A DNA stretch of 48,828 bases. It comes from Parabacteroides sp. Its GTDB lineage: Bacteria; Bacteroidota; Bacteroidia; Bacteroidales; Tannerellaceae. The stretch spans positions 1 through 48,828 of the forward strand of contig JAFUOJ010000005.1 of assembly GCA_017481945.1 (NCBI GenBank), in the 5' to 3' direction. The notes beneath the pieces were generated by a model. That model did no database searches. It was not told the origin of the DNA and worked only from the letters and a program-made list of their open reading frames with translations. Position numbers and translations under genes: made by a program. Every line of letters starts with the position of its first letter. The stretch's first letter is position 1. Of this stretch, positions 8,497 through 48,828 are shown piece by piece.

Positions 8497-11409
8497 TTAG
8501 TATCCGAAGATTTCCTCTTTAGTAACTCGTTGGATCGGTCCATAAGTAGAAAGACTCTTTAGATCCAAATCCTTTTCATCCCCTAAGACACAGTAGATAT
8601 AAGTACGTCCTTTTACCCACTTTTCTTGGAAGGCTTTCACCTCCGGCAGTGTCATGGTCTGTGCTTTTTCGAACAGTTCCTTGCGGCTGTCGGTTGTCAA
8701 ACCTAAATCCTGAGCATTCAGGTAAGACCAAAGTACATTCTCTTTGGTGATACGGTCTGTACGCAGACGAGAGATCAAAGCCTCTTTTGCTAAGTTGAAA
8801 GCCTTTTCTGATTCCGGCATATTGTTGATGATTTCATCAAAAGCTTTCATGGCATCCGCCATCTTGTCGTTCTGTGTAGCGATGAAGGTACGATAGATAT
8901 ACGGATACTTCAACTTAGACGGAGAGATTAAGTAGGCTCCGGCAGAGTAAGCTAATCCACGTGCTTCACGCATTTCCTGGAATACAATCGCATTCATACC
9001 GCCTCCAAAGTACTCGTTGTACATATCCAAAGTCGGTTGGATAGCAGGGTCAAACTTTTCTCCTCGGTTTGAGATGGCAGAGAAGTAGATCTGCTTTGCG
9101 TCATACTGTGCTAACAAGACCTTGTTGGCTGGAGTCTCTTGCTGTTCAAAAGTTTCAGCTGCCGGAACCGGTTGCAATTGTTCAGGTACGTTATGATACT
9201 GTTTGATGATATCCAAGACTGCTTCCGGTTTTTCCGGTCCGTAATACAGAATCTTGTGTTCGTAAGTATTCATCTTATGGATACGGTCTACCAACTCTTG
9301 CGGATTCATGTTCTGTAATTCTGCCGTTGTCAAGACATGAGTTGTCGGAGACTTCGGTCCCCAGATTGCATATTGCATCAATCGGTTGAAGTTCTGACCT
9401 TGATTCAATTTGGCGTCCACGCGTCTCTTCAGAATGTCATTTGCCAAGTTCGCATACGCTGCCTGGTTAGGTTGAGCGTCTGCCAAGATTTCTTCAAACA
9501 GCGCGATTGCCTTCGGCATGTTTTCCTTCAAACCAATCAAACTGACATAGGTACGGTCAGAACCCGGAGAGACACTGAAGTAGCAAGCCAGACGGTAGAA
9601 TTCTTCGTTGATTTCCTGCAGGCTCTTCTTGGAGGTTCCTAAGTACTTCATGTAATCAAAAGCAGTACCCATTGCCTTGTCGTTGTTGGTTCCCATTTCA
9701 AAGACATAGATCAACGTGAAAAGGTCATTTGAAGTGTTTTCCTTATATAATACCGGGATGTTGGATTTAGCTGTCAATTGCTGTAAATCCTTTTCGTAAT
9801 CCAAGAAGACCGGTTCGATAGGTGCCACCTGAGAAGCCTGGATCTCTTTCAAGAAAGCACTGGAGCTGTCACGATTCATTACGATCGGGGTGATCTGCGG
9901 TTTGTCCATCTTCTTTTCGTTCGGATCTTTACCCTGCTTCTTATAGATCAGCGCATAGTTATCACCAAAATACTTGTTGGCGAAGTCTACGATCTGCTGT
10001 TTCGTGATTTTACTCATACGATCCAAGGAAGCTACTTCGTCTTTCCAATCGATACCATCGATGAAGGCAGAGACAAACATATCCGCACGTCCTGCATTTT
10101 CATCCATACGGTACATCTGTGCCAACTTATAGTTGTTGATACAAGCTTCCAACAGTCCTTCATCAAATTCCCCTTTCTTCAACTTTTCGATTTCAGCCAA
10201 GAAGAGGTCTTTCACTTCATCCAAAGTCTGTCCCTGTTTAGGACGTCCGCTCATCACGAAAGCGTTGTAGTCAGACATACCATACGTTCCGGCATAGCAA
10301 CTCAGTACCTTCTGCTGTTGTACCAAATTCACATCCATCAATCCTGCCTTACCGTTGTTGATGATTTCACCGGTCAGGTTCAACAGGTCTTGCTCCGGAG
10401 AGGCTGCTCCCGGGAACCGCCAACCGATAGTTACGTTTTCAGCGTCCAATCCCAATACCTCTTTTATTACCGGGGTCTTAATAGGAGACTCCTGTGTTAC
10501 CGGTAACTTCGGTAGATTTGGATTCGGTTTCATGTGACCGAAATACTTATCGATTGTCGCAATCATTTGGTCTGGGTCGAAATCACCGGAGAGACAGATT
10601 GCCATGTTGTTAGGAACATACCAGGTTTTGTGGTAATTCTTAATGTTAGTGATAGAGGGGTTCTTTAAGTTTTCCTGTGTTCCCAAGACTGTTTGTGTAC
10701 CATACGGATGGTCTGGGAATAGCGCGCTAAGAACAGCTTCATACACTTTGCGTGCGTCCTGTGTCAAAGACATATTCTTTTCTTCATACACTGTCTCCAA
10801 CTCTGTATGGAAACCACGAATCACATTGTTCTCAAAGCGGTCTGCCTGAATTTTCGCCCAGTTTTCAATCTGATTGGAAGGAATATCTTCCACATAGACA
10901 GTCTGGTCGAAACCGGTATAGGCGTTGGTTCCGTTCGCTCCGATAGCAGCCATCAGTTTGTCGTACTCATTCGGGATTGCCCATTTAGAGGCTTCGTAAG
11001 AGATACTGTCAATCTGATGATAGATTGCTTTTCGCTCTGCTTCGTCAGTTGTCTTGCGATAAACTTCAAATAGTTGTTCGATCTGATCTAACAACGGTTT
11101 CTCCTGTTCGTAGTTCTGTGTTCCGAACTTCTGAGAGCCTTTGAACATCAGGTGCTCAAAGTAGTGTGCCAACCCGGTTGTTTCAGCGGGGTCATTCTTT
11201 CCTCCTACACGTACCGCGATGTACGTTTGAATGCGAGGGGTCTCCTTGTTTACCGTCATGTAGACTTTCAAGCCATTGTCTAAGGTATAGATACGGGCTT
11301 TCAGTGGGTCATTGGGGACCGACTCGTAGGGATACGAGGACATTTTTGTACATGCAGTCGCCAGTAAGAATACTACAGCAAGCTGCACAAACTGAATCAT
11401 TTTACGCAT
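8497..11409 (-). CDS. M16 family zinc metalloprotease, lipoprotein
   Basis: About 970 aa. The ATG at 11409 is chosen because it gives a lipoprotein signal (MRKMIQFVQLAVVFLLATAC, Cys20) and because a promoter -7 box lies just upstream at 11447-11454; a longer frame to 11475 would run through that promoter. The inverted zinc motif HYFEH (His82, Glu85, His86) is in the first M16 domain, with the distal glutamate region ETVYEEKN about 75 residues later. The second half (about 500-970) is an inactive-type M16 repeat containing the R/Y-bearing MREARGLAYSAGAYL region. This is the double-domain pitrilysin/insulinase type, anchored in the envelope and degrading peptides. Monocistronic, with terminators on both sides. 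Confidence 0.93.
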   Translation of the reverse strand: MRKMIQFVQLAVVFLLATACTKMSSYPYESVPNDPLKARIYTLDNGLKVYMTVNKETPRIQTYIAVRVGGKNDPAETTGLAHYFEHLMFKGSQKFGTQNYEQEKPLLDQIEQLFEVYRKTTDEAERKAIYHQIDSISYEASKWAIPNEYDKLMAAIGANGTNAYTGFDQTVYVEDIPSNQIENWAKIQADRFENNVIRGFHTELETVYEEKNMSLTQDARKVYEAVLSALFPDHPYGTQTVLGTQENLKNPSITNIKNYHKTWYVPNNMAICLSGDFDPDQMIATIDKYFGHMKPNPNLPKLPVTQESPIKTPVIKEVLGLDAENVTIGWRFPGAASPEQDLLNLTGEIINNGKAGLMDVNLVQQQKVLSCYAGTYGMSDYNAFVMSGRPKQGQTLDEVKDLFLAEIEKLKKGEFDEGLLEACINNYKLAQMYRMDENAGRADMFVSAFIDGIDWKDEVASLDRMSKITKQQIVDFANKYFGDNYALIYKKQGKDPNEKKMDKPQITPIVMNRDSSSAFLKEIQASQVAPIEPVFLDYEKDLQQLTAKSNIPVLYKENTSNDLFTLIYVFEMGTNNDKAMGTAFDYMKYLGTSKKSLQEINEEFYRLACYFSVSPGSDRTYVSLIGLKENMPKAIALFEEILADAQPNQAAYANLANDILKRRVDAKLNQGQNFNRLMQYAIWGPKSPTTHVLTTAELQNMNPQELVDRIHKMNTYEHKILYYGPEKPEAVLDIIKQYHNVPEQLQPVPAAETFEQQETPANKVLLAQYDAKQIYFSAISNRGEKFDPAIQPTLDMYNEYFGGGMNAIVFQEMREARGLAYSAGAYLISPSKLKYPYIYRTFIATQNDKMADAMKAFDEIINNMPESEKAFNLAKEALISRLRTDRITKENVLWSYLNAQDLGLTTDSRKELFEKAQTMTLPEVKAFQEKWVKGRTYIYCVLGDEKDLDLKSLSTYGPIQRVTKEEIFGY

Positions 11410-11446
11410 CTTGATTTGATTTTGATAAGTTCTTTTAAATGGGGTG

Positions 11447-11454
11447 CAAATATA
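11447..11454 (-). promoter_or_regulatory. Promoter -7 box for the M16 protease gene
   Basis: The minus strand reads TATATTTG, with a TTG 18 nt further upstream (11473-11475). It is about 37 bp before the chosen ATG and argues against the longer reading frame. Confidence 0.55.
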
Positions 11455-11488
11455 TGGATTTTTAAACAAAATCAAGGGATTAGATACT

Positions 11489-11526
11489 AAAAAAGAGATT
11501 GACGAGTAACCGCCAATCTCTTTTAT
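11489..11526 (-). terminator. Terminator after susD
   Basis: Stem AAAAGAGATTG (11491-11501) with CAATCTCTTTT (11514-11524), followed on the minus strand by a T run (11489-11494). It ends the SusCD transcript 25 bp after the susD stop. Confidence 0.8.
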
Positions 11527-11550
11527 TACAAGAATCTACGTTTATAAATA

Positions 11551-13512
11551 TTAGTTTTCGTCCCAGAATGGAGCTTGTACCAATGTTGGGTCTTTATCTA
11601 CTTCATCTTGATAAATAGGCCACCAATAGAATTTACGTTTGTACACGCGAGTGATGTATTGAGTACGAACGAAGAATGCTTTTGGATTATCCGGATCGTC
11701 AGACAGTTCTGTACCATTGAAGTTCATACCGTACATCGGTTGATCCAAAACCTCTTCAGCTTTCTTCCAACGGCGTAAGTCTAAATAACGAATACCGTCT
11801 TCGCAACACAATTCAACACGGCGTTCATGGTAAATTGCTTCACGTACTTCGTCCTGACCGTTCAAAGGTATTTTTTCAAAACCATTGCTGTCAATACCTG
11901 TTCCGTACTGTGGCACGCCTGCTCTTTCACGAATCAAGTTCAAATATTTCAAAATATCTGTATTACCCGGATCGCATTCATTTAAAGCTTCAGCATAGTT
12001 CAAATAAGCTTCACCCAAACGATATAGAATACCCGGTCTGTAAGGGTGTATACCGTTTCTCGTATTCTGTTCCAAAGAAACTCTCTTTCGGTTCAAATAA
12101 CCATTCTGAGGAGCGTCATGAGTAGGACCACCATCGGATTCACCGTACATGAATTTTGTTTCACGACTTGCCTGATGATACCATTGTCTGTTCCACATAA
12201 CAGTCAAATAGAAGCGAGGTTCGCGGTTTACATACATATTATATGTACCGGCAGAAGCTACTGTATTATAAGTACAACCGTCAGCACCAACAGAGTCAAC
12301 TGTTGCTCCCGGACATCCTCTATACAAATTGTATTTAGTCTTACGGACATCAGCTTGAGCAGAGAAGCCACGTTCTGTATACTTAGAAGCCGGGTTGATA
12401 ATCGGAGAACCATAGTTTCCGTTGTATCCTGTAATAGGAATAGAACCATCCTTCATTGAGAATGCGTCTACCAATGTCTGATATACACCTAAACCACCGT
12501 TACCGGAAGCGCCACGAGGAGTACTGTGGCTTTCAAATCTGGTGTAATCGTTACTTGCACAAATAAATAATGCTTCTTTATTCACATCGCCTAACAAGAA
12601 ATGCACATTGTAGCAAGACATGAACGGGTCTATACTTCCGTCAGCATTGTACACACGGATCAAGTCATGACCTGCAGCATGAGCAGCGTCGATCAACTCT
12701 TTACATGCGTCAGCAGCGCGTTTCCATTTGCTTGCGTCGTATGATTGACTGAAACGTTCTTTTCCGTCGTGATTCTTAAATCCCTGATACCATTCATTTC
12801 CGTTTACCAATGGGCTGGCAGCGAAAAGTAACATACGAGCACGTACAGCCAAGCACATGATTGAAGTAGCGCGTCCATAATATTGAGTAGACTTGTTCAA
12901 CCAAGTTTCCGGTAACTTTGTAGAAGTTTCCTTCAACTGATTGTCGATCCAATCGACCATTTCATCAAAAGGCACCTGTCCTCTCATCAAATCCGGATCA
13001 CTTACATTTGCCAATCCGTCAAAGAAAGGAACACTACCATAAGCTTCAATCATCAACCAATAGTAATAAGCGATCAAGAAACGACACTCATTCTTCATGA
13101 TTTCTACATCCTCTTCTGTTACATCCTGTTCCTGTAAGGCATGAACATTTTCAATAAACTGATAAGCTGAACGGATTCTTTGTGGACAATGATTCCATAA
13201 AGACCCACCCCAACCGGAGTTTGTGTACCACTGTCCTACGACGTAGTTCAAAACGTTTCCCCACCACTGGTACCAACGTTGAGATGGGTCCAAATCATCC
13301 CCTAAACAATCATAGCCATAACTATTCATTAATGCCCAAGATGGATCTGGTATCTTATTATATACTCCAGACAACCAGTCTTCCATACGTGTTTTATCCT
13401 CAAATACCATTTCCATGGTCAATGTGTCATCCGGTGCATTGTCAATAAAATCCGAACAATTTGAGAAGAAAAATCCACAAACCAGCAATATTATATATTT
13501 TAATCTTTTCAT
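11551..13512 (-). CDS. susD-like: SusD/RagB-family outer-membrane glycan-binding lipoprotein
   Basis: 653 aa. The lipoprotein signal MKRLKYIILLVCGFFFSNC is followed by Ser-Asp, the acidic follow-on expected of surface-exposed Bacteroidetes lipoproteins. The N-terminal NAPDDTLTMEMVFEDKTRME segment, the helical TPR-like middle and the C-terminal LNYAEALNECDPGNTDILKY, IYHERRVELCCEDGIRYLDL and KRKFYWWPI motifs are typical of RagB/SusD. It binds a glycan and closes over the SusC pore. The gene follows susC by 30 bp. At 653 aa it is on the long side, common in loci aimed at host glycans. Which sugar it binds cannot be read from the sequence. Confidence 0.95.
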   Translation of the reverse strand: MKRLKYIILLVCGFFFSNCSDFIDNAPDDTLTMEMVFEDKTRMEDWLSGVYNKIPDPSWALMNSYGYDCLGDDLDPSQRWYQWWGNVLNYVVGQWYTNSGWGGSLWNHCPQRIRSAYQFIENVHALQEQDVTEEDVEIMKNECRFLIAYYYWLMIEAYGSVPFFDGLANVSDPDLMRGQVPFDEMVDWIDNQLKETSTKLPETWLNKSTQYYGRATSIMCLAVRARMLLFAASPLVNGNEWYQGFKNHDGKERFSQSYDASKWKRAADACKELIDAAHAAGHDLIRVYNADGSIDPFMSCYNVHFLLGDVNKEALFICASNDYTRFESHSTPRGASGNGGLGVYQTLVDAFSMKDGSIPITGYNGNYGSPIINPASKYTERGFSAQADVRKTKYNLYRGCPGATVDSVGADGCTYNTVASAGTYNMYVNREPRFYLTVMWNRQWYHQASRETKFMYGESDGGPTHDAPQNGYLNRKRVSLEQNTRNGIHPYRPGILYRLGEAYLNYAEALNECDPGNTDILKYLNLIRERAGVPQYGTGIDSNGFEKIPLNGQDEVREAIYHERRVELCCEDGIRYLDLRRWKKAEEVLDQPMYGMNFNGTELSDDPDNPKAFFVRTQYITRVYKRKFYWWPIYQDEVDKDPTLVQAPFWDEN

Positions 13513-13542
13513 ATTCTTATTAATTTAAGAGATGGATAATAA

Positions 13543-16500
13543 TTAGAAATCAATATTAAACCCAAAAGAGAACGATTTCATCAATGGATACTTAGCACCA
13601 TTGTTTGTATCAAGTTCCGGATCCCACAAATCAAAAGCAGAGAAAGTAAACAAATTAGAACCTTTCGCATAAATTCTAAAATTAGAAAGTCCAATTTGAT
13701 TTATCCAACGTTTCGGGAAGGTATAACCAATCTCTACGTCTTTCATTCTTAACATACTCATGTTGCGCAACCACCAAGTTGAATTCTGGCTGTTGTTGGT
13801 GTTTGTACCCCAGGTTAAGCGAGGATAGAATACATCCTGACTTGGGTTTTCTGCAGTCCAACGATCGTTGTAGTTTGAGAAGATGTTACCCATTGAACCC
13901 ATTGCTGTACCCGGCAAGAAGTAGTTAGCCACACCACCAATAAAACGGTATGTTCTACCATTACCTTGGAAGAAGATGTTGAAGTCTACGTTTTTATAGC
14001 GGCTTGTTGCACCGAATCCATACACGATTTCCGGATTGTTGGTTCCACCCAAGGCTGTTTCGTCCATTGAGTTGACTGCGTTATCTCCATTTAAATCAAG
14101 GTATTTAATATCACCCGGACGTACTGTGTTAAATGTATGTGCAGGTATTCCTTCTTTAAGGACTAATTCACCCTCTTCATTCGTAACGAAATCGTCTTCA
14201 GTAAACAATCTTTCAGCCACTAAACCAAACAGTTCGTTTACACTGTGTCCTGTACGCTGTCTGTTTGTTCCAATTCTACCCATCGGTTCATCCTGTTCGA
14301 TGATTTCATTATGTGCATAGGTGAAAGTACCTCTGAATCCGATATTAAGATCCTTATTTATAGATTGGTTGTAAACCAAAGAGAGGTCAACACCACCGTT
14401 ATTTACCTTACCGAAGTTCGCCCATGGAGTCTTACGGAATCCGGCTGCAGTAGGAATGTTAGAACGTTGCATGAAGATGTCTCGACGCTGTTCTTTAAAC
14501 CAGTCTACTTGTAAATCCAATACATTGAACAAACCTAATTCCATACCGACGTTCAGCTTTTCAACAGTTTCCCAAGTCAAATCCGTAACACCGATTTCAC
14601 CTTCGAAACGAGAAGAGCGGTTGAAGTCGTTGTTGATACCCCATCTGTAACTACCATCTGTATCAATGGTAGACAAGAAAGCGAAACGACGACCTGACAA
14701 CTGGTCATTACCTGTCAAACCCCAAGAAGCGCGGAACTTAATCTTAGAGAATGTATTTTTGTATTTCTCCATGAATTTTTCTTCAGACAATAAATAACCT
14801 ACTGCTACTGAAGGGAAGAAACCAAATCGATTTCCTGCAGAGAAGTTTTCTGAACCGTTATAACCGAAGTTGAACTCTGCAATGTAACGATTGTCAAAAG
14901 TATAAGAGGCACGGCCTGCATATCCCATACGGCGGTAAGGAACGACTGAACCATCGCTATAATCACGCTGGTTATACAATAACATCGCACTGACAGCATG
15001 CTTTTCATTAAACGTACGGTTATAGGTCAAATTTCCTTCCAGATAGGTCGCTTTATTTCCCCATGAAGCGTCATTGGAGCTATCCAAGAATTCCTGTCCG
15101 TCTGTACCTACTGATAAAACCAACTCTCCGTTTTCATCACGTTGTGTAGTCGGTGTATAATAAGTCGGAGTTCCTGAACGAGTAACCCAAGAGTTTGAAT
15201 ATCTGTCGAAAGAGAAGATACCCTTTATTTTCAATCCCGGAGTGATAAACTTCAAATCCTGTTCCAAAGAGAAAGTTGATTCAATTTTGGAAGAAGAGCT
15301 TGTTTGATATCCGTGCTGTGTCAATCGAGCCCAAGGGTTCTGACGATTCAAAACGCGAACATTACTTCCATCTGAGTATTGAGTCGGATGTACATAAGGA
15401 GGTGTCTGGAATGCGTACGACCAGATATCACTATCACTTGCATCCGGGCTATTCATTTCTTGTAGATAACCACCGATACTAACACCTAAAACTGTAGTTT
15501 TTGTCAAGTTAATATCCACATTTGAACGAATGTTATATTTATTAAGGCGTGTAGAAGAGTCCCATTCTTTGGTTTTGTCACTTTCCAAGATACCTCTTTC
15601 TCCGTAGTAAGAAGCAACTAAAGCATAACGAAGGATGTCACTACCACCTGTTACGGTAATATCTCCACGAGTATTTGAAGCCATATCTTTAGAGACTGCG
15701 TCTAACCAGTTTACGTCCGGATAGAGGTCAGCGTCTGTATGGTTTCTATATCCATTGATCATTTCTTCTGTATAAATCGGATTCGGGTTACCGGCGTCCA
15801 AATAAAGTTCATTCATCAAAGTCAAATAGTCAGCAGATCCGATATAATCCGGCAACTTAGTCGGGCTGGTAAATCCTTGTTCAAAATGAACATCTACTTT
15901 CGGTTTACCTAATTCACCGCGTTTTGTCTTCACGATGATAACACCGTTCGCACCACGAACACCATACACTGCACTGGCTGCTGCGTCCTTCAAAACAGAG
16001 AAAGATTCAATTTCTGCTGCAGAAAGGTCATCCAAGGTACGTTCGATACCGTCCACTAAAACCAACGGACTTGTACCTGTGCTCTGGAAAGAGGAGATAC
16101 CACGAATCCAGAAGTCAGAACCATCAGAACCCGGAGCACCGTTTCTTTGTACTGCAATAACTCCGGCCAACTGACCTGCCAAGTTATTAGATACGGCACG
16201 GTTGGTTCCTTGTTGCAACTGGGCAGGTTCAACAGAGGTAATAGCACCTACAACAGAAGCTTTCTTCTGAGAACCGTAACCTACAACAACGACTTCTTCC
16301 AAACTGTTAGATTCTTCAGACAGGTTTACGTTGATGTTGATCTGATTTCCAACCTGAATTTCTTTGCTTTTAAAACCAATGTAACTGAAAACTAAGACTG
16401 AATTCTTGCTGGGTACTTCCAAGAAGTAATTACCGTTGACGTCTGTAGTTGTACCAATCGTAGTTGATTTGACAGTTACGTTTACGCCCGGTAACGGATT

Positions 16501-16920
16501 CCCTTGTTCATCCCAAACAGAACCGTTGATATTGATACCCTGTTGACGTTTCTGTTGTTCTGAAGCCTTAGACAGAATAATCTGTTTCCCTTTAATCTCG
16601 TAATTGATATTGGTCTCTTTAGCTAAGACTGCCATGATAGACGCAATATCTTCATTTTCTACCTGAATAGTAACTACTTTATCCAATACGTTCAGTAACT
16701 CTTTAGAGTACATGAAGATAAAGCTACTGTTCTTTTCGATGTCGTCAAGTACTTCCTTTACAGTTTTGTTTTCCAATTTAACTGTAAGGGACTTTTCCTG
16801 CACATAGTCTTGACTTATTGCCGATATGGAAGAAATCGGTAATAATGCTAGTACTAAGAAGTAAATCCAAAAGGTGTTTTTCTTTGTTCTATGACAAAAA
16901 ACTAAATCTTTATTCGCCAT
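13543..16920 (-). CDS. susC-like: SusC/RagA-family TonB-dependent receptor with STN domain
   Basis: 1125 aa. Long signal peptide (about 1-38), then an STN domain (about 45-118: KEVLDDIEKNSSFIFMYSKE), a CarboxypepD_reg-like domain (about 128-215: GSVWDEQGNPLPGVNVTVKS), the plug (about 225-335, with YGSQKKASVVGAITSV and VYGVRGANGVIIVKTKRG) and a 22-strand type barrel ending in a phenylalanine-containing terminus (FSFGFNIDF). The STN domain is the part that signals to a FecR anti-sigma factor, and a FecR and an ECF sigma are encoded just upstream. It imports oligosaccharides across the outer membrane with SusD. A plus-strand promoter and terminator across its 5' leader suggest an antisense RNA. 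Confidence 0.95.
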   Translation of the reverse strand: MANKDLVFCHRTKKNTFWIYFLVLALLPISSISAISQDYVQEKSLTVKLENKTVKEVLDDIEKNSSFIFMYSKELLNVLDKVVTIQVENEDIASIMAVLAKETNINYEIKGKQIILSKASEQQKRQQGININGSVWDEQGNPLPGVNVTVKSTTIGTTTDVNGNYFLEVPSKNSVLVFSYIGFKSKEIQVGNQININVNLSEESNSLEEVVVVGYGSQKKASVVGAITSVEPAQLQQGTNRAVSNNLAGQLAGVIAVQRNGAPGSDGSDFWIRGISSFQSTGTSPLVLVDGIERTLDDLSAAEIESFSVLKDAAASAVYGVRGANGVIIVKTKRGELGKPKVDVHFEQGFTSPTKLPDYIGSADYLTLMNELYLDAGNPNPIYTEEMINGYRNHTDADLYPDVNWLDAVSKDMASNTRGDITVTGGSDILRYALVASYYGERGILESDKTKEWDSSTRLNKYNIRSNVDINLTKTTVLGVSIGGYLQEMNSPDASDSDIWSYAFQTPPYVHPTQYSDGSNVRVLNRQNPWARLTQHGYQTSSSSKIESTFSLEQDLKFITPGLKIKGIFSFDRYSNSWVTRSGTPTYYTPTTQRDENGELVLSVGTDGQEFLDSSNDASWGNKATYLEGNLTYNRTFNEKHAVSAMLLYNQRDYSDGSVVPYRRMGYAGRASYTFDNRYIAEFNFGYNGSENFSAGNRFGFFPSVAVGYLLSEEKFMEKYKNTFSKIKFRASWGLTGNDQLSGRRFAFLSTIDTDGSYRWGINNDFNRSSRFEGEIGVTDLTWETVEKLNVGMELGLFNVLDLQVDWFKEQRRDIFMQRSNIPTAAGFRKTPWANFGKVNNGGVDLSLVYNQSINKDLNIGFRGTFTYAHNEIIEQDEPMGRIGTNRQRTGHSVNELFGLVAERLFTEDDFVTNEEGELVLKEGIPAHTFNTVRPGDIKYLDLNGDNAVNSMDETALGGTNNPEIVYGFGATSRYKNVDFNIFFQGNGRTYRFIGGVANYFLPGTAMGSMGNIFSNYNDRWTAENPSQDVFYPRLTWGTNTNNSQNSTWWLRNMSMLRMKDVEIGYTFPKRWINQIGLSNFRIYAKGSNLFTFSAFDLWDPELDTNNGAKYPLMKSFSFGFNIDF

Positions 16921-17013
16921 AACTTTGCTTAGATTTTAAATTAATACTAAAAGTTCTATAGATAGAGTTGTTTCTCATGTCGCCAGAGAGCGCATGCGCT
17001 CTCTGGCATTTTT
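16920..17013 (+). ncRNA. Candidate antisense small RNA opposite the susC 5' leader
   Basis: On the plus strand TAACTTTG (16920-16927) fits the Bacteroidetes -7 box and overlaps the susC start codon. A 26-bp perfect palindrome (16982-17007) followed by six T makes an intrinsic terminator on that strand only. A transcript from about 16934 to 17013, about 80 nt, would be fully antisense to the susC leader. This matches the known arrangement of DonS-type RNAs that repress some Bacteroides PULs. No -33 TTG is at the right distance. No expression evidence. Confidence 0.5.
16982..17013 (+). terminator. Palindromic terminator upstream of susC, active on the plus strand
   Basis: GCCAGAGAGCGCA at 16982-16994 is followed directly by its exact complement (16995-17007) and then ATTTTTT. 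On the minus strand there is no T run after it, so it should not stop the FecR-to-SusC transcript; it can only terminate transcription running away from susC. Confidence 0.7.
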
Positions 17014-17067
17014 TATATAAAAAATGTTTTTCAGTCCATGATATTAATTTTTTAGTGGTACATACAG

Positions 17068-18180
17068 TTACTTTCTCTCTAAATAAATGACACCCTCCTT
17101 ATCGTACGCATAAAGCGGTATCATTGATTTTATGCAATCTATGATATCATTCAAATCATCATGAAGGCTCAGCTTTCCGTACACAACTTCGTCGGATAAA
17201 GAATTGTCACAAACAATCTTCTTTCCGTAGAAGAGACTCAATCGGTCGGTCAGTTCACTCAAGCAATGACCGTCTAAAATCATCACGTCTTCTGTCCAAG
17301 CCTTATAATCACTTGCTTTTACCTTCTTTTTCTCAGCCAACTCATTCCCTTCGATGACAATCATCTCATCAGGAACAATTTTCGTGGTCTGGTTCTGTTG
17401 GTCTTTCACTTCCACAGATCCTTCGAGCAAAACTACTCGGCTAACCGGCATTTGCTTATAAGCGAAGACATTGAAAGAGGTACCCAAAACCTTTACATCA
17501 AAACCGTTTGCGGACACATAAAAGGGGCGCTTTGCGTCTGGCTGTACTTCCAAATAAACTTCGCCTTCCACATAGATTTCTCGTTTCTCTTTGCTGAAGA
17601 CTCTGGGATAAATGACTTTTGTTCCGGCGTTGACCCAAACTTTTGTACCATCAGAGAGCAACAGACGGGAACGTTTCCCTTTGGGGACAATTAGCTGGTC
17701 ATAGAAATTTTTATCCTTGCAATCGCTTTTGACAAGTTTCTCTGAAGCAACTCCTTTTGAATTGACTTTAGCCTGTCCCTCTTTGGTGTACGAAACCTGA
17801 ACATCTGTCTTGGACCAACGTTTTTGAATGTCTGCCATGATCAATGTTACCTCTTCAACCTCTTCTGGTAGTTGTGAATTTTGACTGACTACCCAGTTCT
17901 TGATTGATTCCTGTGAAGGATTCTCTTTCACTTTCAACCAGTAAGTCAAACCAATTGCCATCAAAACAGCGATAGAAGCTGCAACGAGATAAACTTTTCT
18001 TCGTAAGTAAAGCTTATTTCCTTTGTTGGCTTGTATCCGTTGTAAAGTCTTTTCTCGAATTGAATCAACGATAGAAGCTTCTACTTCCGGATTACAATCA
18101 TTCCAAAAGTAGTCTATCTTCTTCTGAATATCTTCGTTCTCTTTTTCGACAAAAGCTTGTATATCGTTTTTATTTTCCAT
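17068..18180 (-). CDS. FecR-family anti-sigma factor
   Basis: 370 aa. A cytoplasmic N-terminal part (1-62) precedes one membrane segment (about 64-85: VYLVAASIAVLMAIGLTYWL). The periplasmic FecR domain (about 155-260) includes KGKRSRLLLSDGTKVWVNAG and VEGEVYLEVQPDAKRPFYV. A C-terminal DUF4974-type domain (about 300-370: LSELTDRLSLFYGKKIV) is thought to contact the STN domain of the receptor. It holds the ECF sigma until SusC reports substrate. It lies between the sigma gene (107 bp before) and susC (147 bp after). Standard length and order for Bacteroidetes. Confidence 0.93.
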   Translation of the reverse strand: MENKNDIQAFVEKENEDIQKKIDYFWNDCNPEVEASIVDSIREKTLQRIQANKGNKLYLRRKVYLVAASIAVLMAIGLTYWLKVKENPSQESIKNWVVSQNSQLPEEVEEVTLIMADIQKRWSKTDVQVSYTKEGQAKVNSKGVASEKLVKSDCKDKNFYDQLIVPKGKRSRLLLSDGTKVWVNAGTKVIYPRVFSKEKREIYVEGEVYLEVQPDAKRPFYVSANGFDVKVLGTSFNVFAYKQMPVSRVVLLEGSVEVKDQQNQTTKIVPDEMIVIEGNELAEKKKVKASDYKAWTEDVMILDGHCLSELTDRLSLFYGKKIVCDNSLSDEVVYGKLSLHDDLNDIIDCIKSMIPLYAYDKEGVIYLERK

Positions 18181-18286
18181 ACGAATGAATGTGTGTATAT
18201 TAATAAGACGCTTTTTCTCAAAAAATCTCCTACTGCAAATTGAAATAAAAAAGAAGATTATGTAAATTTTTTTTCATGTCCCTTTT

Positions 18287-18841
18287 TTACAGGAACAAAG
18301 TGAAGATGGATTTCTTCAGGACAGAAGCTATTTTCTCAATGGCTTTTGCGACGTGGATATTTATTGTTTTTACGGATATACCAAGCATTTCGGCAATCTC
18401 TTTATAAGGGACTTTCTCTATTTTGGCCAATATAAAAACCTCTTTACACTTAGGGGGCAAAGAGGCTATTGCGGAATTGATTTCTTCAATCTCTTGTTTA
18501 CTAATCATTTCCAAATCAGGAGATTGTACGAAGGGGACTTGGTAATCCTCAATCTCCTCAAAAGAGATATTTTTCTCTTGGTTTGACTTCCTTAAATACA
18601 GAATAGCTTGGTTACGAGTCATTGTTAACAGCCAGGCCTTTAAGGATTTAATAGTATCCAACTGGAAGCGGTTGTCCCATACTTTGACAAAAACATCCAT
18701 GACCACTTCTTCCGCTACTTCTCGTACTTCAACATATCCGAGAGCGAAGAAATATAGATCCTTAGCATACAAATCAACAAACCGGCGGAAGGCCTGCTGG
18801 TCTCCCTCCTTAATCGCTTGTATGTCTATTTTGGGATACAT
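18287..18841 (-). CDS. ECF-type RNA polymerase sigma factor
   Basis: 184 aa with sigma region 2 (about 10-80: FRRFVDLYAKDLYFFALGYV and VVMDVFVKVWDNR) and region 4 (about 125-178: LPPKCKEVFILAKIEKVPYK, then EIAEMLGISVKTINIHVAKA as the helix-turn-helix). This is the Bacteroidetes sigma-70 family 1 ECF type that pairs with FecR. It should direct transcription of the downstream SusC/SusD genes when released from the anti-sigma factor. A -7 box (18861-18868) is 20 bp upstream of the ATG. GTG or alternative starts are not needed. Confidence 0.94.
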   Translation of the reverse strand: MYPKIDIQAIKEGDQQAFRRFVDLYAKDLYFFALGYVEVREVAEEVVMDVFVKVWDNRFQLDTIKSLKAWLLTMTRNQAILYLRKSNQEKNISFEEIEDYQVPFVQSPDLEMISKQEIEEINSAIASLPPKCKEVFILAKIEKVPYKEIAEMLGISVKTINIHVAKAIEKIASVLKKSIFTLFL

Positions 18842-18937: not shown

Positions 18938-20224
18938 TTATAAACCAAAAATTTCTTTCACTTTGTCTACATAATCTAATTTCTCCCACGTGAACAGTTC
19001 TACTTCACAAACCGTAGGTTCCGGGTTGTAATGAGATGTAAATGTTTTAGTTACAATCTTCGGCTCACGTCCCATGTGACCATAGGAAGCAGTCTCTGAA
19101 TAGATAGGATTGCGCAGTTTCAAACGCTCTTCGATTGCTTTCGGACGCATATCAAAAAGATTCCATACTTTTTCGGCAATTTCTCCATCAGTCATATTTA
19201 CATTGGCACGTCCGTATGTGTTTACAAAGATATTCATCGGTTTAGCGACTCCAATAGCATAAGAAACCTGTACTAAGATTTCATCTGCAACCCCTGCTGC
19301 TACCAAATTCTTTGCAATATGACGAGCTGCATAAGCGGCTGAACGGTCTACTTTAGATGGGTCTTTCCCTGAGAATGCACCTCCACCGTGTGCTCCTTTT
19401 CCTCCGTATGTATCTACAATAATCTTACGTCCGGTTAAACCTGTATCTCCATGAGGACCTCCGATTACAAACTTTCCGGTTGGGTTCACATGATAAATAA
19501 TGTGTTCGTTGAACAATGCCTGTACATGGGCAGGATATTTTGCTTTCACACGCGGAACTAAGATATTCTTGACGTCTGCCTCAATCTTTTCCTGCATAGC
19601 CTTGTCAGCCTCTTCTTGAGACATTCCTTCAGCCAAGATAAATTCATCATGTTGTGTAGATACTACAATCGTATCAATGCGTAACGGTTTGCCGTTATCA
19701 TTATACTCAATTGTCACCTGACTTTTGGCGTCTGGACGTAAGTAGGGCATTAACTGGCTCTCGTTTTTACGAATCTGCGCTAATTCCCATAACAAACTGT
19801 GTGAAAGGTCTAAAGCTAATGGCATATAATTAGCCGTTTCATTGGTTGCATAACCGAACATCATACCTTGGTCGCCGGCTCCCTGATTATAAGGATCTTC
19901 ACGTTCTACACCACGGTTGATGTCACCACTTTGTTCATGGATTGCAGAAAATACACCGCAGGATTTGGCTTCAAACTGATACTCGCTTTTTGTGTATCCA
20001 ATCTTTTCAATCACACTGCGGGCTACATCCTGAACATCTACATAAGTACTTGATTTTACTTCTCCAGCCAAGACAACCTGTCCGGTTGTAACAAGGGTTT
20101 CGCAAGCAACTTTCGAATTCTTGTCATACGCCAAGAACTCATCCAGCAAAGCATCCGAGATCTGATCGGCTACTTTATCGGGGTGTCCTTCAGACACCGA
20201 TTCGGAGGTGAATAAATAACTCAT
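18938..20224 (-). CDS. metK: S-adenosylmethionine synthase
   Basis: 428 aa from the ATG at 20224 ([20 protein letters not shown]); an ATG six codons earlier is possible but the family starts here. His14, Asp16 and Lys17 of the ATP-binding loop are present, as are [29 protein letters not shown] and [19 protein letters not shown]. The longer (about 428-aa) form with an insertion after GPHGD-preceding strands is usual in Bacteroidetes. It makes SAM from methionine and ATP in the cytosol. Single-gene transcript with a leader of about 205 nt (promoter at 20437-20444), which is long and contains stable hairpins, so cis-regulation by SAM or a metabolite is plausible but unproven. Confidence 0.98.
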
Positions 20225-20430
20225 TATTTCTTTTATGGGCAACTGGGACCGGGCAATGAACCGATGGGAATCCGTTTCCGAACGGATGATTATCCGATTT
20301 CCAATTGACGGTTAATAAATAAATCGAGATTGATGAGGGAGATTATGCTCGCCGAACGGCGGTAAAAAGTGTTGTTTTTTAGCATTTTTTCCTGTGGTTG
20401 CAAGCAATACAAATCTATCCACATCAATTT
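20225..20430 (-). promoter_or_regulatory. Structured 5' leader of metK, candidate regulatory RNA
   Basis: About 205 nt separate the predicted start of transcription from the ATG. Stems seen include ATCCGTT/AACGGAT with a 4-nt loop (20270-20287), and CGCC/GGCG with a GAAC loop (about 20350-20361). Other GC-rich pieces near the gene include GGGCAACTGGGACCGGGCAA (20237-20256). It does not match a SAM-I consensus I know; class unassigned. Confidence 0.4.
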
Positions 20431-38290: not shown

Positions 38291-38433
38291 GTTCTAATTG
38301 TTAGATTATATTTCGGGCTGCAATTTACTCAATATCCGGCTGATTCCCGACATTCCCTCCTATTTATTTCATTTTTTCCTCGGCACTCCTTTCCCAACAA
38401 CCGCCGATCGCTTTCAAAAAAAGTCTACACTTT

Positions 38434-38507
38434 TCTAAAAGTTTCACCCGATGAAACTCCAAGTTTCTTTCAATGAAACTCCGAGTTTCAAGCGTGAAAC
38501 TTTTAGA
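38434..38507. repeat. Nested palindrome: long arms enclosing two small hairpins
   Basis: Outer arms TCTAAAAGTTTCAC-like, exact for CTAAAAGTTTCAC (38435-38447) against GTGAAACTTTTAG (38494-38506). Inside are two near-identical 15-nt hairpins, GAAACT-CCA-AGTTTC (38453-38467) and GAAACT-CCG-AGTTTC (38475-38489). The whole can fold as a four-way cross in DNA or RNA. Confidence 0.8.
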
Positions 38508-38554
38508 GCGATAAAAAAGCGTTAAAAATAAACTCGGCATGCAGCAAAAAAATC

Positions 38555-38562
38555 TATATTTG
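38555..38562 (+). promoter_or_regulatory. Promoter -7 box for the lipoprotein/rSAM locus
   Basis: TATATTTG, 46 bp before the ATG at 38609. No TTG at standard spacing. Confidence 0.5.
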
Positions 38563-38608
38563 TATCTATCCAAATGAAAAGCATTTACAAATTTAATTCT
38601 ATGGAGCT

Positions 38609-39454
38609 ATGAACAGTTTTTACATTCGTTTTTTGAAGAGAATCAATCAGCTATTATTTGGTTTATTAGCGATGTTAGGTTTCGCTTGTTCGGATGATGA
38701 ACAGAATAATCACATTATTTGTGAATATGGAACACCGTATGCTACGTTTGAAGTAAAAGGGAAAGTCGTAGACAAAGCGGGGAAACCGATTCCGAATATA
38801 CAGATTCGGACCAATATGGAAGACGAAGAAAAGGCTTCTTATTATACACTACATACAGATACAATAACCACTCAGTCGGACGGGACCTTTGAATGGAAAA
38901 CGACCGACTACCTACTAAAGTCTACTCAATACAGGCTTATTTCCGAGGATATTGACGAGGAAAATAATGGAGGGACCTTTGCGTCTGATACCTCTTTTAT
39001 TGATTTTAAGGGCACAGAACTTGTTGGAGCGGATAGTTGGTTCTTAGGAAAAGCGACAAAAGAGATGACTATTACCCTGCAAGACTATGTAGACACCCAT
39101 ACAGAACCGTACGCAAAATACACCATTTATGGGCAAGTCACAAACCAAAACAACAATCCAATGCCAGGAATTTTCATCCTTACCGATCCGGCATACAAGC
39201 CGAATACGGGAGATGATCCTGCGAATTACCTCGCCATAACAGACATATACGGTCGTTATGCTTTTACTTGTGAGTTAGAATCTCCTGCGGAACATCTTAT
39301 TTACACAAAGCCTCACAGTAGTTATGAGAAAGGGATATACACAATTGTCAATGATACTATTAGCGTAAACTTTGCGGATATCGAATTGACCGGCGGTAAA
39401 GGTTTGCTAAAAGGCAAAGGCAGTAAGGAGGTAAATTTTCGACTGAAAATATGA
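38609..39454 (+). CDS. Radical SAM-associated putative lipoprotein
   Basis: 281 aa. A lipoprotein signal with Cys27 (GLLAMLGFACSDDEQ) is followed almost at once by the motif C38-EYGTPYA, which I know as the signature of a lipoprotein family always found next to a dedicated radical SAM/SPASM enzyme, present here 53 bp downstream. After it come two similar beta-rich modules of carboxypeptidase-regulatory type: about 44-145 (VKGKVVDKAGKPIPNIQI, SDGTFEWKT) and about 160-260 (IYGQVTNQNNNPMPGIFI, DIYGRYAFT). The second begins EPYAKYTIYG, echoing the first (TPYATFEVKG), so the protein looks internally duplicated. Likely exported and anchored; function and any modification are unknown. Confidence 0.88.
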   Translation: MNSFYIRFLKRINQLLFGLLAMLGFACSDDEQNNHIICEYGTPYATFEVKGKVVDKAGKPIPNIQIRTNMEDEEKASYYTLHTDTITTQSDGTFEWKTTDYLLKSTQYRLISEDIDEENNGGTFASDTSFIDFKGTELVGADSWFLGKATKEMTITLQDYVDTHTEPYAKYTIYGQVTNQNNNPMPGIFILTDPAYKPNTGDDPANYLAITDIYGRYAFTCELESPAEHLIYTKPHSSYEKGIYTIVNDTISVNFADIELTGGKGLLKGKGSKEVNFRLKI

Positions 39455-39494
39455 ATAAATGCTCCGGATATTAAGCTGAAAGTTAAAATAACGG

Positions 39495-39500
39495 AAGGAG
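39495..39500 (+). promoter_or_regulatory. Shine-Dalgarno sequence before the rSAM gene
   Basis: AAGGAG lies 7 nt before the ATG at 39508. Such a clear ribosome-binding sequence is unusual among the genes of this window. Confidence 0.6.
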
Positions 39501-39507
39501 AATAACC

Positions 39508-40581
39508 ATGAACAAAAAGCCGACTTTTAAGAAACGACTGGTATTAGAACTGTTTCGAAAAATCAAAAAGAACCGAACAAAGATACATGAACTGCGTACC
39601 CTCTTTTGGGAATGTACGCTACGCTGCAACGTCTCCTGCCGTCATTGCGGAAGCGATTGCCACGTTTCTACCTCCATACCTGATATGCCTGTTGAAGATT
39701 TCCTAAAAGTAATAGATGACATTACGCCTTATGTAGAGCCCAACAAAGTACTTGTTATCTTCACCGGAGGCGAAGCTTTGGTTAGGAAAGACATAGAGAA
39801 GTGCGGCTTAGAACTCTATCGTCGTGGTTATCCTTGGGGAATTGTTTCCAACGGTTACCTGATGACTCGCGAACGATTAGACAGCTTGTTGGCAGCCGGT
39901 CTACATTCTGCAACCATTAGTTTGGATGGTTTCGAGGAGGCACACAACTGGTTACGCCGCAATCTCCGAAGCTATGAAAAGGCGTTGAATGCAGTAAAAA
40001 TGCTGACAAAGGAGAAAGAAATCGTCTGGGATGTCGTGACATGCGTCAATCAAAAGAACTTCAAAGATTTGGTTCGTTTCAAGAATTATTTGGTAGAGTT
40101 AGGAGTAAAACGTTGGCGAATCTTCACAATCTTCCCGGTAGGACGTGCCAGCAGTGAAGCAGAGTTGCAACTAAACAACGAACAGTTCACGTGGGTACTC
40201 AACTTTATCCGGGCTTGTCGCCAAGAGAGAAAGATACATACCAGCTACGGTTGCGAAGGATTTTTAGGGAATTATGAGGCAGAGGTTCGAGATTCTCTCT
40301 TTCAATGTAATGCAGGATTGAATACTGCTTCCATATTAGCTGACGGTTCTATCTCCGGTTGTCCCAGTATCCGAACGAACTTTCACCAAGGTAATATCTA
40401 CAAAGATCGTTTCATTGATGTCTGGAACAACGAATTCAAACCCTATCGAGACCGCAGTTGGACAAAGAAAGGCGAGTGTGCCGACTGCAAAATGTTCCGT
40501 TATTGCGAAGGGAACGGCATGCACCTCTACGACGACAATGGGAATCTGTTGGTTTGTCATTACAAAAGGATTGTGGATTAG
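39508..40581 (+). CDS. Radical SAM/SPASM enzyme of the rSAM/lipoprotein system
   Basis: 357 aa. The SAM-cluster motif is CNVSCRHC (Cys40, Cys44, Cys47), followed by the GGE-type TGGEA (86-90). A C-terminal SPASM domain has Cys267, Cys285, Cys324, Cys327, Cys333 and Cys350 (GECADCKMFRYCEGNGMH) to hold extra Fe-S clusters. Enzymes of this build modify peptides; paired with the EYGTP lipoprotein, the natural inference is that it acts on that lipoprotein or a product of it. I recall the pair as NCBI families TIGR04133 and TIGR04134. Cytoplasmic, so any modification must precede export. A Shine-Dalgarno sequence (39495-39500) supports the start. Confidence 0.9.
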   Translation: MNKKPTFKKRLVLELFRKIKKNRTKIHELRTLFWECTLRCNVSCRHCGSDCHVSTSIPDMPVEDFLKVIDDITPYVEPNKVLVIFTGGEALVRKDIEKCGLELYRRGYPWGIVSNGYLMTRERLDSLLAAGLHSATISLDGFEEAHNWLRRNLRSYEKALNAVKMLTKEKEIVWDVVTCVNQKNFKDLVRFKNYLVELGVKRWRIFTIFPVGRASSEAELQLNNEQFTWVLNFIRACRQERKIHTSYGCEGFLGNYEAEVRDSLFQCNAGLNTASILADGSISGCPSIRTNFHQGNIYKDRFIDVWNNEFKPYRDRSWTKKGECADCKMFRYCEGNGMHLYDDNGNLLVCHYKRIVD

Positions 40582-40627
40582 AAAATCTTTTCTACCTTTA
40601 TCCACATAATTCAAAAACAAATTAAAC

Positions 40628-42391
40628 ATGAGAAACACTATTATCTTATCGTTTTTATTAGCCGTAAGCCCTCTCTGTTTTGCACAGCAGGCAGAGAAGT
40701 ATCCTTTAGGGCAGTACGAAGAATTGACTGACACAAAACCACATGACAGTGATGAAGTGTGGGATCAGTTAAAGGTAGCAACCCAGTTAAGTTGGGGAAC
40801 AACGGACATCCGTTACAAGAAATTAGACATTCCTGATGTACAGAAAACAACACGTATCCAGTTGAAAGCTTGGAAAGGGGAACGAGTAAATGCACAGGCT
40901 GTTCTATGGACAAAGGCTGATTTGGAAGAAGCAACTATCACTGTTAGCGAACTGAAAAGCGGTTCTTCCGTCATTCCTGCGTCAGCTATTACGACAAACT
41001 TCGTTCGCTACGTCATGACAGATGAGCTGAACAAAGATAAAAAAGGGGCTTGTAGTAAACGTCCAAACAAGGCAGAATGGGACTCTTCTATTGTAGCTGA
41101 TGTATTAGACATTGTAAAAATACAGGATATCAAAGCTCGTACGACCCGCCCTATTTGGTTAAATGTGTGGGTTCCTTCGGATACACGTGCAGGGAAATAT
41201 AAAGGGACGTTGACAGTTTCCGGTAAGAATTTCCAGGCGATGAACCTGCAATTTGAAATCCAAGTGTTAAACCGTACATTGCCAAATCCAAAAGAATGGG
41301 TGCTTCATTTGGACTTGTGGCAGAATCCATACGCAGTAGCCCGCTATTATCAAGTGCCTCTTTGGAGCAAAGAACACTTTGACGCTATGCGTCCAATCAT
41401 GAAAATGTTGGCAAATGCTGGGCAACGCGCAATCACAACAAGCATTATGCACAAACCTTGGGCAGGACAAACAGAGGATCATTTTGATAGTATGGTCTTC
41501 CGTATGAAGAAATTAGACGGAACTTGGGAATATGATTATACGGTATTTGACAAGTGGGTTGAGTTCATGATGAACGAAATTGGTATTGACGAAATGATTA
41601 GTTGTTATACCCTGATTCCTTGGGCTTTGACATTTGATTACTATGATCAGGCAACCAATCGCGTACAATTTGTCAATACAAAACCGGGAGAAGCTGCCTA
41701 TACTGAGTATTGGGGAACTTTCTTAAAAGACTTCTCTCGCCATTTACGTCAAAAGGGTTGGTTTGAAAAGACTGCTATTTCTATGGACGAACGCCCCATG
41801 GAGGCCATGCGCGAAGCGATTAAAGTGATTAAAGATGCAGACCCTGAATTTAAAATCACTTTGGCTGGTAACTACCATCCGGAAATTCAAGAAGATCTAT
41901 ATTACATTGCTATTCCTTACGGACACAAATATCCGGAAGATGTAAAAGCTGAACGTAAACGCAAAGGACAGTATAGTTGTGTCTATACTTGCTGTGCAGA
42001 AGCATTCCCAAATACATTTACTTTCTCCGATCCGGCAGAAGCAACTTGGACTCCTTTACATGCTTTGGCTGGCGGATATGATGGATATTTACGTTGGGCT
42101 GTTCAAAGTTGGGTAGCCGATCCTTTGCGTGATTCACGCTTCCGTACATGGGCGGCAGGTGATACTTACAGTATCTATCCGGGACCTCGCAGCAGTATTC
42201 GTTTTGAACGTCTAATTGAAGGACTTCAAGATTGCGAAAAAGTCCGTATCCTTCGCGAAGGACTAAAAGGCAGCAAACTTGAAAAGCTAAACAAAGCAGT
42301 CTCCATGTTTACTCCGGAAGGTGTCGAACAAACCCAAAAGTCCGCAAGCGAAATGGTAAACGAATTGAATTCGTTACTGAATTCGTTGTAA
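40628..42391 (+). CDS. GH123-like hydrolase (DUF4091 family)
   Basis: 587 aa with a cleavable signal peptide (MRNTIILSFLLAVSPLCFAQ). The N-terminal beta domain (about 50-215) is followed by a TIM-barrel-like domain (about 225-540). The acid pair Asp387-Glu388 (ISMDERPMEAM) matches the Asp-Glu dyad of GH123 N-acetyl-beta-galactosaminidases, which use substrate-assisted catalysis; ITTSIMHKPWAGQTED and GYDGYLRWAVQSW also fit. Expected in the periplasm, acting on GalNAc-containing glycans. It lies 46 bp after the rSAM gene on the same strand and may share its transcript. Whether it belongs functionally to the rSAM system is unknown. Activity should be called tentative. Confidence 0.8.
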   Translation: MRNTIILSFLLAVSPLCFAQQAEKYPLGQYEELTDTKPHDSDEVWDQLKVATQLSWGTTDIRYKKLDIPDVQKTTRIQLKAWKGERVNAQAVLWTKADLEEATITVSELKSGSSVIPASAITTNFVRYVMTDELNKDKKGACSKRPNKAEWDSSIVADVLDIVKIQDIKARTTRPIWLNVWVPSDTRAGKYKGTLTVSGKNFQAMNLQFEIQVLNRTLPNPKEWVLHLDLWQNPYAVARYYQVPLWSKEHFDAMRPIMKMLANAGQRAITTSIMHKPWAGQTEDHFDSMVFRMKKLDGTWEYDYTVFDKWVEFMMNEIGIDEMISCYTLIPWALTFDYYDQATNRVQFVNTKPGEAAYTEYWGTFLKDFSRHLRQKGWFEKTAISMDERPMEAMREAIKVIKDADPEFKITLAGNYHPEIQEDLYYIAIPYGHKYPEDVKAERKRKGQYSCVYTCCAEAFPNTFTFSDPAEATWTPLHALAGGYDGYLRWAVQSWVADPLRDSRFRTWAAGDTYSIYPGPRSSIRFERLIEGLQDCEKVRILREGLKGSKLEKLNKAVSMFTPEGVEQTQKSASEMVNELNSLLNSL

Positions 42392-42392
42392 A

Positions 42393-42447
42393 AAAGATAA
42401 GATTCAAAAGGCGAGAACCATTTTCTCGCCTTTTGAATCTTATCTTT
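42393..42447. terminator. Bidirectional terminator, 25-bp perfect stem
   Basis: 42393-42417 and 42423-42447 are exact reverse complements around CCATT. It ends the GH123-like gene and the convergent small membrane gene. Confidence 0.9.

Positions 42448-48725: not shown

Positions 48726-48828
<103 letters not shown>

Follow-up and report, generated by a model that had tools for sequence, protein, structure and literature searches.

X-Y-G-x-P lipoproteins as candidate substrates of a splicease-like radical SAM enzyme in Parabacteroides and its relatives

Introduction

Among the described systems the PlpXY spliceases come closest to the gene pair analyzed here. In the excerpts of the splicease literature on which we draw, X-Y-G is given as the splice-site motif, with several sites per precursor being possible (PMC10373908); PlpXY processes MYG and LYG sites naturally, and PLYGLPI is part of the splice tags that were tested (PMC10533398). 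According to the same kind of excerpt, PlpX belongs to IPR026482 and acts together with PlpY, a truncated protein of the RRE type (recognition element of ribosomally synthesized and post-translationally modified peptides, RiPPs; PMC11002830). Splicease systems are described there as widespread, with 939 predicted as cited in PMC10533398, and protease inhibition is reported for spliceotide ketoamides (PMC10373908, PMC11117315). The pair that we compare with these systems consists of a lipoprotein gene and a gene for a radical S-adenosylmethionine (SAM) enzyme with a SPASM part. Both lie in a stretch of 48,828 nucleotides from Parabacteroides sp. (GenBank assembly GCA_017481945.1, contig JAFUOJ010000005.1, positions 1 to 48,828 of the forward strand), hereafter called the window.

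We take the PlpXY spliceases (Pleurocapsa) to be members of the family TIGR04103, and the annotation “nif11-class peptide radical SAM maturase 3” presumably denotes both TIGR04103 and IPR026482. A Nostoc plasmid locus annotated in this way encodes a Nif11 precursor ending in IALYGLPPELF, with a 71-residue protein adjoining. Because this precursor and the PlpXY sites and tags match the motif found in the window lipoprotein and in its relatives, X-Y-G-x-P is common to both kinds of system. Further points of likeness are the SPASM enzyme itself, the possibility of several sites per substrate, the sequence signatures CGS and GC[PTLS][SN] and a sister position in trees. Unlike the PlpXY precursors, the partner proteins studied here (with E39-Y40-G41 as the X-Y-G in the window) have lipoprotein signal peptides and not Nif11 or NHLP leaders, and their product would remain membrane-anchored.

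The enzyme and the lipoprotein exceed the cut-offs of the NCBIfam models TIGR04133 (601.3 bits versus 425) and TIGR04134 (167.6 bits versus 39.8), which bears out the original prediction, made from the DNA alone, that they form a known radical SAM/lipoprotein pair. The names of both models state no function or motif. In the literature searched, to which the catalogue of the 939 predicted systems did not belong, neither accession and none of three wordings of the family name was found. The word “lipoprotein” is absent from the three splicease papers in which it was looked for, and a term search in part of a paper on RiPP mining in Bacteroidales (PMC10352776) gave no occurrence of “lipoprotein”, “splice” or “TIGR04133”. 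To the named pair we add a target motif, a set of carriers that varies and extends to short lipopeptides, and the link to spliceases. With a named family and a known splicease chemistry, the novelty would lie in a splicease-like system with lipoprotein substrates.

We propose, with a probability of approximately 0.6, that TIGR04133 edits peptides in a splicease-like manner and has the lipoprotein as its substrate; this figure covers the complete reading with leader function, ketone formation, surface display and use. Four observations carry the proposal, namely the pairing of both genes, the conservation of X-Y-G(-x-P), the independence of this motif from its carrier and the grouping of the enzyme with PlpX-type enzymes.

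Pairing of the enzyme with motif-bearing exported proteins

Two sets of loci were surveyed. The order scan covered 295 genomes of the order to which the window belongs and provided 83 TIGR04133 matches besides the window's own, while the contig set comprised 80 loci (the best 80 of 312 relatives) with 81 enzyme genes; four enzymes are identical between the sets over the last 300 residues. A neighbor was counted by script if it was encoded on the same strand within 2 kb, showed a loose export-signal pattern, had at most 450 residues and contained YGxP.

TIGR04133 occurs at E ≤ 1e-60 in 69 of the 295 genomes, nearly a quarter of this sample, and exceeds the family cut-off in 61; Parabacteroides and Bacteroides are among the named relatives. 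TIGR04134 exceeds its cut-off in 40 genomes, 39 of which also hold TIGR04133 (the exception is genome G227), a co-occurrence with a hypergeometric probability of 1.5e-28. The original prediction had named a mostly separate occurrence of the homologues as the finding that would count against it; they are found together.

By script a YGxP-bearing exported neighbor was found at 67 of the 83 order-scan loci. Inspection by eye revealed an XYG neighbor, exported or cut by the contig end, at seven of the 16 missed loci (numbered L121, L124, L153, L157, L159, L166 and L167 by us), leading to 74 out of 83. Two more missed loci lie at contig ends (L094, L151), and at L123 the YGxP is 2.4 kb off and a lipoprotein-like open reading frame (ORF) with CYAPAP adjoins the enzyme. 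The same script applied to the opposite strand gave 3 out of 83; among 199 signal-bearing ORFs located more than 2 kb away on the same strand, 1 contained YGxP. In the contig set 69 of the 81 enzyme genes passed by script and five more by eye (L037, with its front cut, L039, L050, L068 and L069), compared to 5 out of 81 on the opposite strand and 3 out of 744 distant signal-bearing ORFs. Two contig loci have less than 500 bases upstream (L018, L031), and at L033 a TIGR04134-like ORF appears without its front part.

The motif goes with the enzyme and not with the lipoprotein family. Among the 67 script-positive loci of the order scan the motif carrier is TIGR04134-like by profile in 53, and no such carrier is present in 14; at least eight of these 14 appear unrelated to TIGR04134 (L088, L096, L099, L104, L107, L108, L111, L160), the remainder being short or divergent. 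The carriers include Ig-like lipoproteins of one or two domains, charged lipoproteins with VYGSPE repeats that on inspection of the sequence look like coiled coils, one lipoprotein with three KYG[VI]P sites, proteins whose signal peptide ends in AQ directly before YG, and lipopeptides of 51-85 residues that extend scarcely beyond the signal peptide and one motif. In 28 substrates of the order scan the lipobox Cys itself takes the position X (QACYGTP), and 25 of these have a hydrophobic stretch directly before it and no other Cys in the preceding 12 residues. A full-length lipoprotein partner instead of a short precursor, which had been predicted as the unusual trait of the pair, is accordingly one end of a range, as the short lipopeptides of other loci carry the same motif.

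Two or three motifs are present in 24 of the 168 YGxP substrates if both sets are pooled. At 195 YGxP sites X is Glu (96), Met (30), Cys (30), Lys (16), Val (11), Ala (5), Leu (5), Ser (1) or Asn (1), and Gln also occurs if the sites found by eye are included. Over the 67 order-scan loci the commonest X requires 16 changes on the enzyme tree compared to 37.4 in shuffles, none out of 200 being as low; Cys, Glu, Lys and Val are clustered.

Two further loci deserve mention. In genome G129 one contig carries two motif lipoproteins (L125, 3145-4219) with no enzyme in the 10 kb examined, and on another contig an enzyme gene lies beside five XYG-bearing exported proteins (L127, 4879-7015), which suggests substrates in trans to the enzyme. 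On a plasmid of Treponema saccharophilum (L129, 4797-7089) the genes for a TIGR04133 enzyme and for a lipoprotein with SCYGMP adjoin one for an Mpi-type DNA invertase; the system thus extends beyond Bacteroidota and may be phase-variable there.

The window lipoprotein

The motif in the window is EYGTP at residues 39-43. The original prediction had placed it right after a lipid anchor at C38 and regarded the region starting with C38 as the target. The motif is confirmed, and by its proximity to the anchor it remains the likely target; C38 is neither conserved nor, most likely, the anchor. In the AlphaFold model (mean predicted local distance difference test, pLDDT, 88.4) the better anchor candidate, C27 in LGFAC, lies directly past a predicted signal helix (residues 3-25), and the motif starts 12 residues further on. 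Residues 29-38 form a low-confidence linker, followed by the motif and by the first strand (44-54). We take the resulting mature N terminus, CSDDEQ, to be similar to the acidic signal by which lipoproteins of Bacteroidota are exported to the surface.

To describe the conservation, 178 TIGR04134-like domain rows were collected with a profile, in which the motif columns are included, rather than with the motif pattern, after removal of 7 out of 185 rows with too few letters at the motif. Tyr occupies the column of Y40 in 168 rows, Gly that of G41 in 168 and Pro that of P43 in 167. The column of C38 is mixed (Ala 54, Asp 31, Val 27, Cys 23), and the column of E39 contains Glu in 100, Cys in 29 and Met in 20 rows.

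The lipoprotein consists of two tandem TIGR04134-type domains, the second of which has HTEP at the position of the YGTP of the first and an IYG without Pro ten residues further on; the fold can therefore do without the motif. A sequence search against solved structures gave no match, and the 50 matches listed by a structure search are mainly pilins, adhesins and intradiol dioxygenases with template modeling (TM) scores below 0.3 for the query. Judged by the model the fold is a general beta-sandwich, and the structure search points to no function.

We further considered YGxP as a general feature of lipoproteins, and rejected it. In the 0.42 Mb available of the window's own genome only the window protein among 52 lipoprotein-like ORFs has YGxP up to residue 60; in a second ORF the motif lies just beyond this limit, and 7 out of 52 contain it anywhere. 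The background is 21 YGxP sites in 127,541 residues of ORFs of this genome, and the distant and opposite-strand controls given above are low as well.

Relation of the enzyme to PlpX-type spliceases

In a tree of 32 rows TIGR04133 is joined with the PlpX/GDL group with a support of 96/95, which becomes 100/99 in a tree of 27 rows from which two divergent TIGR04133 sequences (L098, L103) and the long rows PqqE, MftC and Indioceanicola were removed. TIGR04053 as the nearest kin of the enzyme was rejected by the approximately unbiased (AU) test (p 0.0006), despite its higher score by plain hidden Markov model (HMM) comparison. The combination of CxxxCxxCGS and [GA]C[PTLS][SN] is found in 5 out of 5 rows of the PlpX/GDL side, in 16 out of 18 TIGR04133 rows and in none of 9 other outgroup rows, the two TIGR04133 rows without it being again L098 and L103. 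In a ranking by the TIGR04133 profile, all of the 9 other outgroup rows fall below Agathobacter, Aureibacter, Nostoc PlpX and Azospirillum GDL; one of the nine stands just above Tropicibacter, which belongs to the same clade as PlpX/GDL.

L098, L103 and L110 form a divergent TIGR04133 branch below the cut-off. Two of the three, those that were aligned, have a truncated SPASM region, and the branch probably has a different function.

The enzymes that accompany GDL-motif/DUF1843 peptides (TIGR03913) match Nostoc PlpX at 47-48% over approximately 90% and belong to the clade joining TIGR04133; their peptides are short, lack a lipoprotein signal and contain PYG in some cases. At two loci with such peptides beside PlpX-like enzymes (L201, 1787-2242; L202, 1653-2366) most copies have PYG or a degenerate MYA or LYA near the N terminus, and a Tyr target is possible in this family too.

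The model of the window enzyme is of high confidence (mean pLDDT 91.9). A structure search with it returns SPASM peptide and protein maturases of many chemistries (SuiB, ChlB, anSME), viperins and others, and singles out no one chemistry. The sulfatase-maturating SPASM enzyme anSME acts on whole exported proteins and forms formylglycine from Cys or Ser. It is among the top structural matches, and differs from the system proposed here in its motif and in that no tyramine is lost.

The signal peptide as a potential leader

In 54 out of 61 relatives of the lipoprotein conservation is higher in the signal peptide than in the mature part (means 0.38 and 0.29, with the window protein as reference). 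This was the case in none of the relatives of neighboring exported families, i.e. 0 out of 18 for GH123, 0 out of 15 for GH95 and 0 out of 6 for a porin. The signal peptides have a recurrent core, N-x2-L-x-GLL-x-LLGF-x2-C. A Nif11 or NHLP leader was not matched by any NCBIfam or Pfam model on the window lipoprotein, which has the lipoprotein signal peptide in this place. From the sequence pattern, a cytosolic enzyme may recognize the signal peptide as a leader before export.

Proposed mechanism

With respect to signal-peptide recognition, tyramine excision, surface display and biological role we infer the following sequence of events. In the cytosol the enzyme would bind the nascent prolipoprotein, probably via the conserved signal peptide serving as leader, and would work just beyond the lipobox at E39-Y40-G41. 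There the tyrosine remnant would be excised as tyramine (about −135.07 Da), leaving a reactive keto group. Export, lipidation on C27 and surface display would follow, with the ketone positioned beside the anchor. The most likely use of the displayed ketoamide would be the covalent and reversible capture of proteases, e.g. for their inhibition, and a Glu-ketoamide could trap Glu-preferring proteases. This fits the CYG and QYG members less well because there the mature protein would begin with X. General covalent capture or attachment would be an alternative role.

Several results weigh against the proposal. No XYG exported neighbor was found at three order-scan loci within the cut-off (L100, L101, L156), at the three divergent ones below it (L098, L103, L110) and at four loci of the contig set (L014, L032, L041, L063). 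The enzyme reaches only 110.2 bits with the PlpX family model TIGR04103, far below the cut-off of 725, and was therefore not assigned to that family; by plain similarity it scores slightly higher with the models TIGR04053, NirJ2 and AhbD, and the trees were built from the SPASM families at hand, among which the haem-type families are not found. The cluster cysteines, predicted to be complete, are so in the radical SAM motif CxxxCxxC (C40, C44 and C47, invariant across 47 aligned sequences), while the SPASM part has six of the seven cysteines of the Nostoc PlpX-family enzyme and lacks the partner of its C329, for which the invariant C249 may stand in. A PlpY-like ORF was detected neither in the surveyed loci (best E 0.54 outside Nostoc, with one query that a diverged partner could escape) nor by eye among the plus-strand ORFs of at least 35 residues at 38400-40760. 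Among the GDL-type precursors, whose enzymes are nearer to PlpX, YG is absent in two of three Aureibacter peptides. The control families of the signal-peptide comparison are closer relatives (mature means of 0.77 for GH123, 0.72 for GH95 and 0.58 for the porin, compared to 0.29), and the comparison is weakened by this. Finally, Met at X is not clustered on the enzyme tree (8 changes for 8 rows), and the clustering of the other residues fits co-evolution but could be explained as well by plain inheritance.

The enzyme could also modify X-Y-G-x-P through a different radical reaction, such as a crosslink at the ring or beta carbon of Tyr (cyclophane, ether) or an epimerization, without loss of tyramine. 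The range of outcomes known for its fold, the conservation of both Tyr and Pro and the score below the PlpX-family cut-off are in agreement with this. We nevertheless regard it as unlikely, as the Gly after Tyr is as conserved as the Tyr itself and X tolerates Glu, Met, Cys, Lys, Val, Ala, Leu and Gln, which fits XYG splicing; Pro43 is the only other fixed partner residue in the motif, and the tree places the enzyme with PlpX and not with TIGR04053.

A more far-reaching view can be put forward tentatively, at somewhat less than even odds. The TIGR04133 products would represent lipid-anchored spliceotides with the signal peptide as RiPP leader and the product on the surface. In the CYGxP subgroup the lipidated Cys would become an alpha-keto-beta-amino acid, so that the anchor itself would carry a backbone electrophile, and the carriers, from a 51-residue lipopeptide to Ig-like proteins of 280 residues, would form an array of covalent warheads with X setting the target specificity. 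Should the splicing proposal be true, these bacteria present reactive alpha-ketoamides at the cell surface, an export signal is able to act as RiPP leader, and a common, unexplained gene pair is a protein-editing system.

Organization of the locus and the GH123 gene

The window carries the lipoprotein, the enzyme and a GH123-family hydrolase head to tail, as predicted, with gaps of 53 and 46 bases (Table 1). The glycosidase-like nature of the third product is confirmed by the GH123 catalytic domain (GH123_cat, 380.8 bits versus a gathering cut-off of 23.1).

Table 1. Features of the locus in window coordinates.
Feature	Position	Strand	Basis
Substrate lipoprotein, TIGR04134, 281 residues, two tandem Ig/CarboxypepD_reg-like domains (proposed substrate)	38609..39454	+	NCBIfam, Pfam, AlphaFold model
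Lipoprotein signal peptide up to lipobox Cys27 (LGFAC), proposed second role as leader peptide	38609..38689	+	Conservation, predicted helix 3-25
Codon of Cys38, not conserved	38720..38722	+	Cys in 23 of 178 rows
X-Y-G-x-P motif E39-Y40-G41-T42-P43, proposed splice site	38723..38737	+	Column conservation, 178 rows
Radical SAM/SPASM enzyme, TIGR04133, 357 residues, proposed splicease	39508..40581	+	NCBIfam, trees, model
GH123-family hydrolase, 587 residues, with export signal	40628..42391	+	Pfam PF13320 and PF22680 (N-terminal domain); neighborhood counts
Terminator-like hairpin, 20 pairs, 3' of GH123	42397..42443	+	Terminator scan

A terminator scan of both strands listed 6 sites, compared to 3.7 expected from shuffles, and the hairpin after GH123 accounts for 4 of the 6. 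No terminator-like site was listed between the three genes; the sole other one on the plus strand is weak (9 pairs) and lies inside the GH123 gene (40672-40697). A single transcript for the three genes is likely because intergenic sites of this kind are missing and the 20-pair hairpin follows directly after GH123, which here is probably co-transcribed with the pair.

The closest named relatives are Parabacteroides, with 86% for the enzyme compared to P. distasonis. An annotated P. distasonis record shows the identical gene order and names the third gene DUF4091.

The possibility of GH123 as a third member had been raised in the original prediction together with the neighborhood comparison that now decides it. 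Loci with too little downstream DNA, 8 in the contig set and 2 in the order scan, are excluded from the following counts. GH123 directly follows in 13 of the 22 Parabacteroides-named contig loci, lies 1.5-4.9 kb off in four and was not seen in five. In two other genomes of the same genus in the order scan it is once the next gene and once further off. Outside these, the only contig locus out of 51 with GH123 as the next gene is from a Tannerella, none of the 79 order-scan loci of other genera has it, and GH123 was rejected as a general third member. GH123 is a lineage-specific passenger or helper, mainly in Parabacteroides, and not a core part of the system.

A narrower variant would have the enzyme act on the motif and GH123 work as its third member in a glycan-foraging module of Parabacteroides with a modified lipoprotein. 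The short gap, the position of the only strong hairpin and the frequent adjacency within the genus speak for it; the near absence elsewhere and the nine Parabacteroides-named loci in which GH123 is distant or not seen make such a module improbable. Least probable of all is that YGxP serves the exported proteins for sorting or docking and the enzyme acts on another product of the same operon: the motif adjoins the anchor in many members, as would suit a localization signal, but it can lie at the lipobox Cys itself, about 13 or dozens of residues after it, or close to the C terminus, with up to three copies, it is not general in the lipoproteins of the genome, and it accompanies the enzyme even with an unrelated carrier.

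Other features of the window

On the minus strand a run of genes at 8497-18841 encodes a sigma factor, FecR, a TonB-receptor plug, SusD and an M16 peptidase. They make up a regulated uptake locus with the peptidase at its end, the substrate being perhaps peptides rather than glycans. A SAM-II riboswitch (20369-20428, minus strand, Rfam RF01726, 57 bits) lies approximately 126 bases upstream of the gene for S-adenosylmethionine synthetase (18938-20242, minus strand). A 5S ribosomal RNA (rRNA; Rfam, 74.7 bits) at 48727-48828 of the minus strand is cut by the end of the window.

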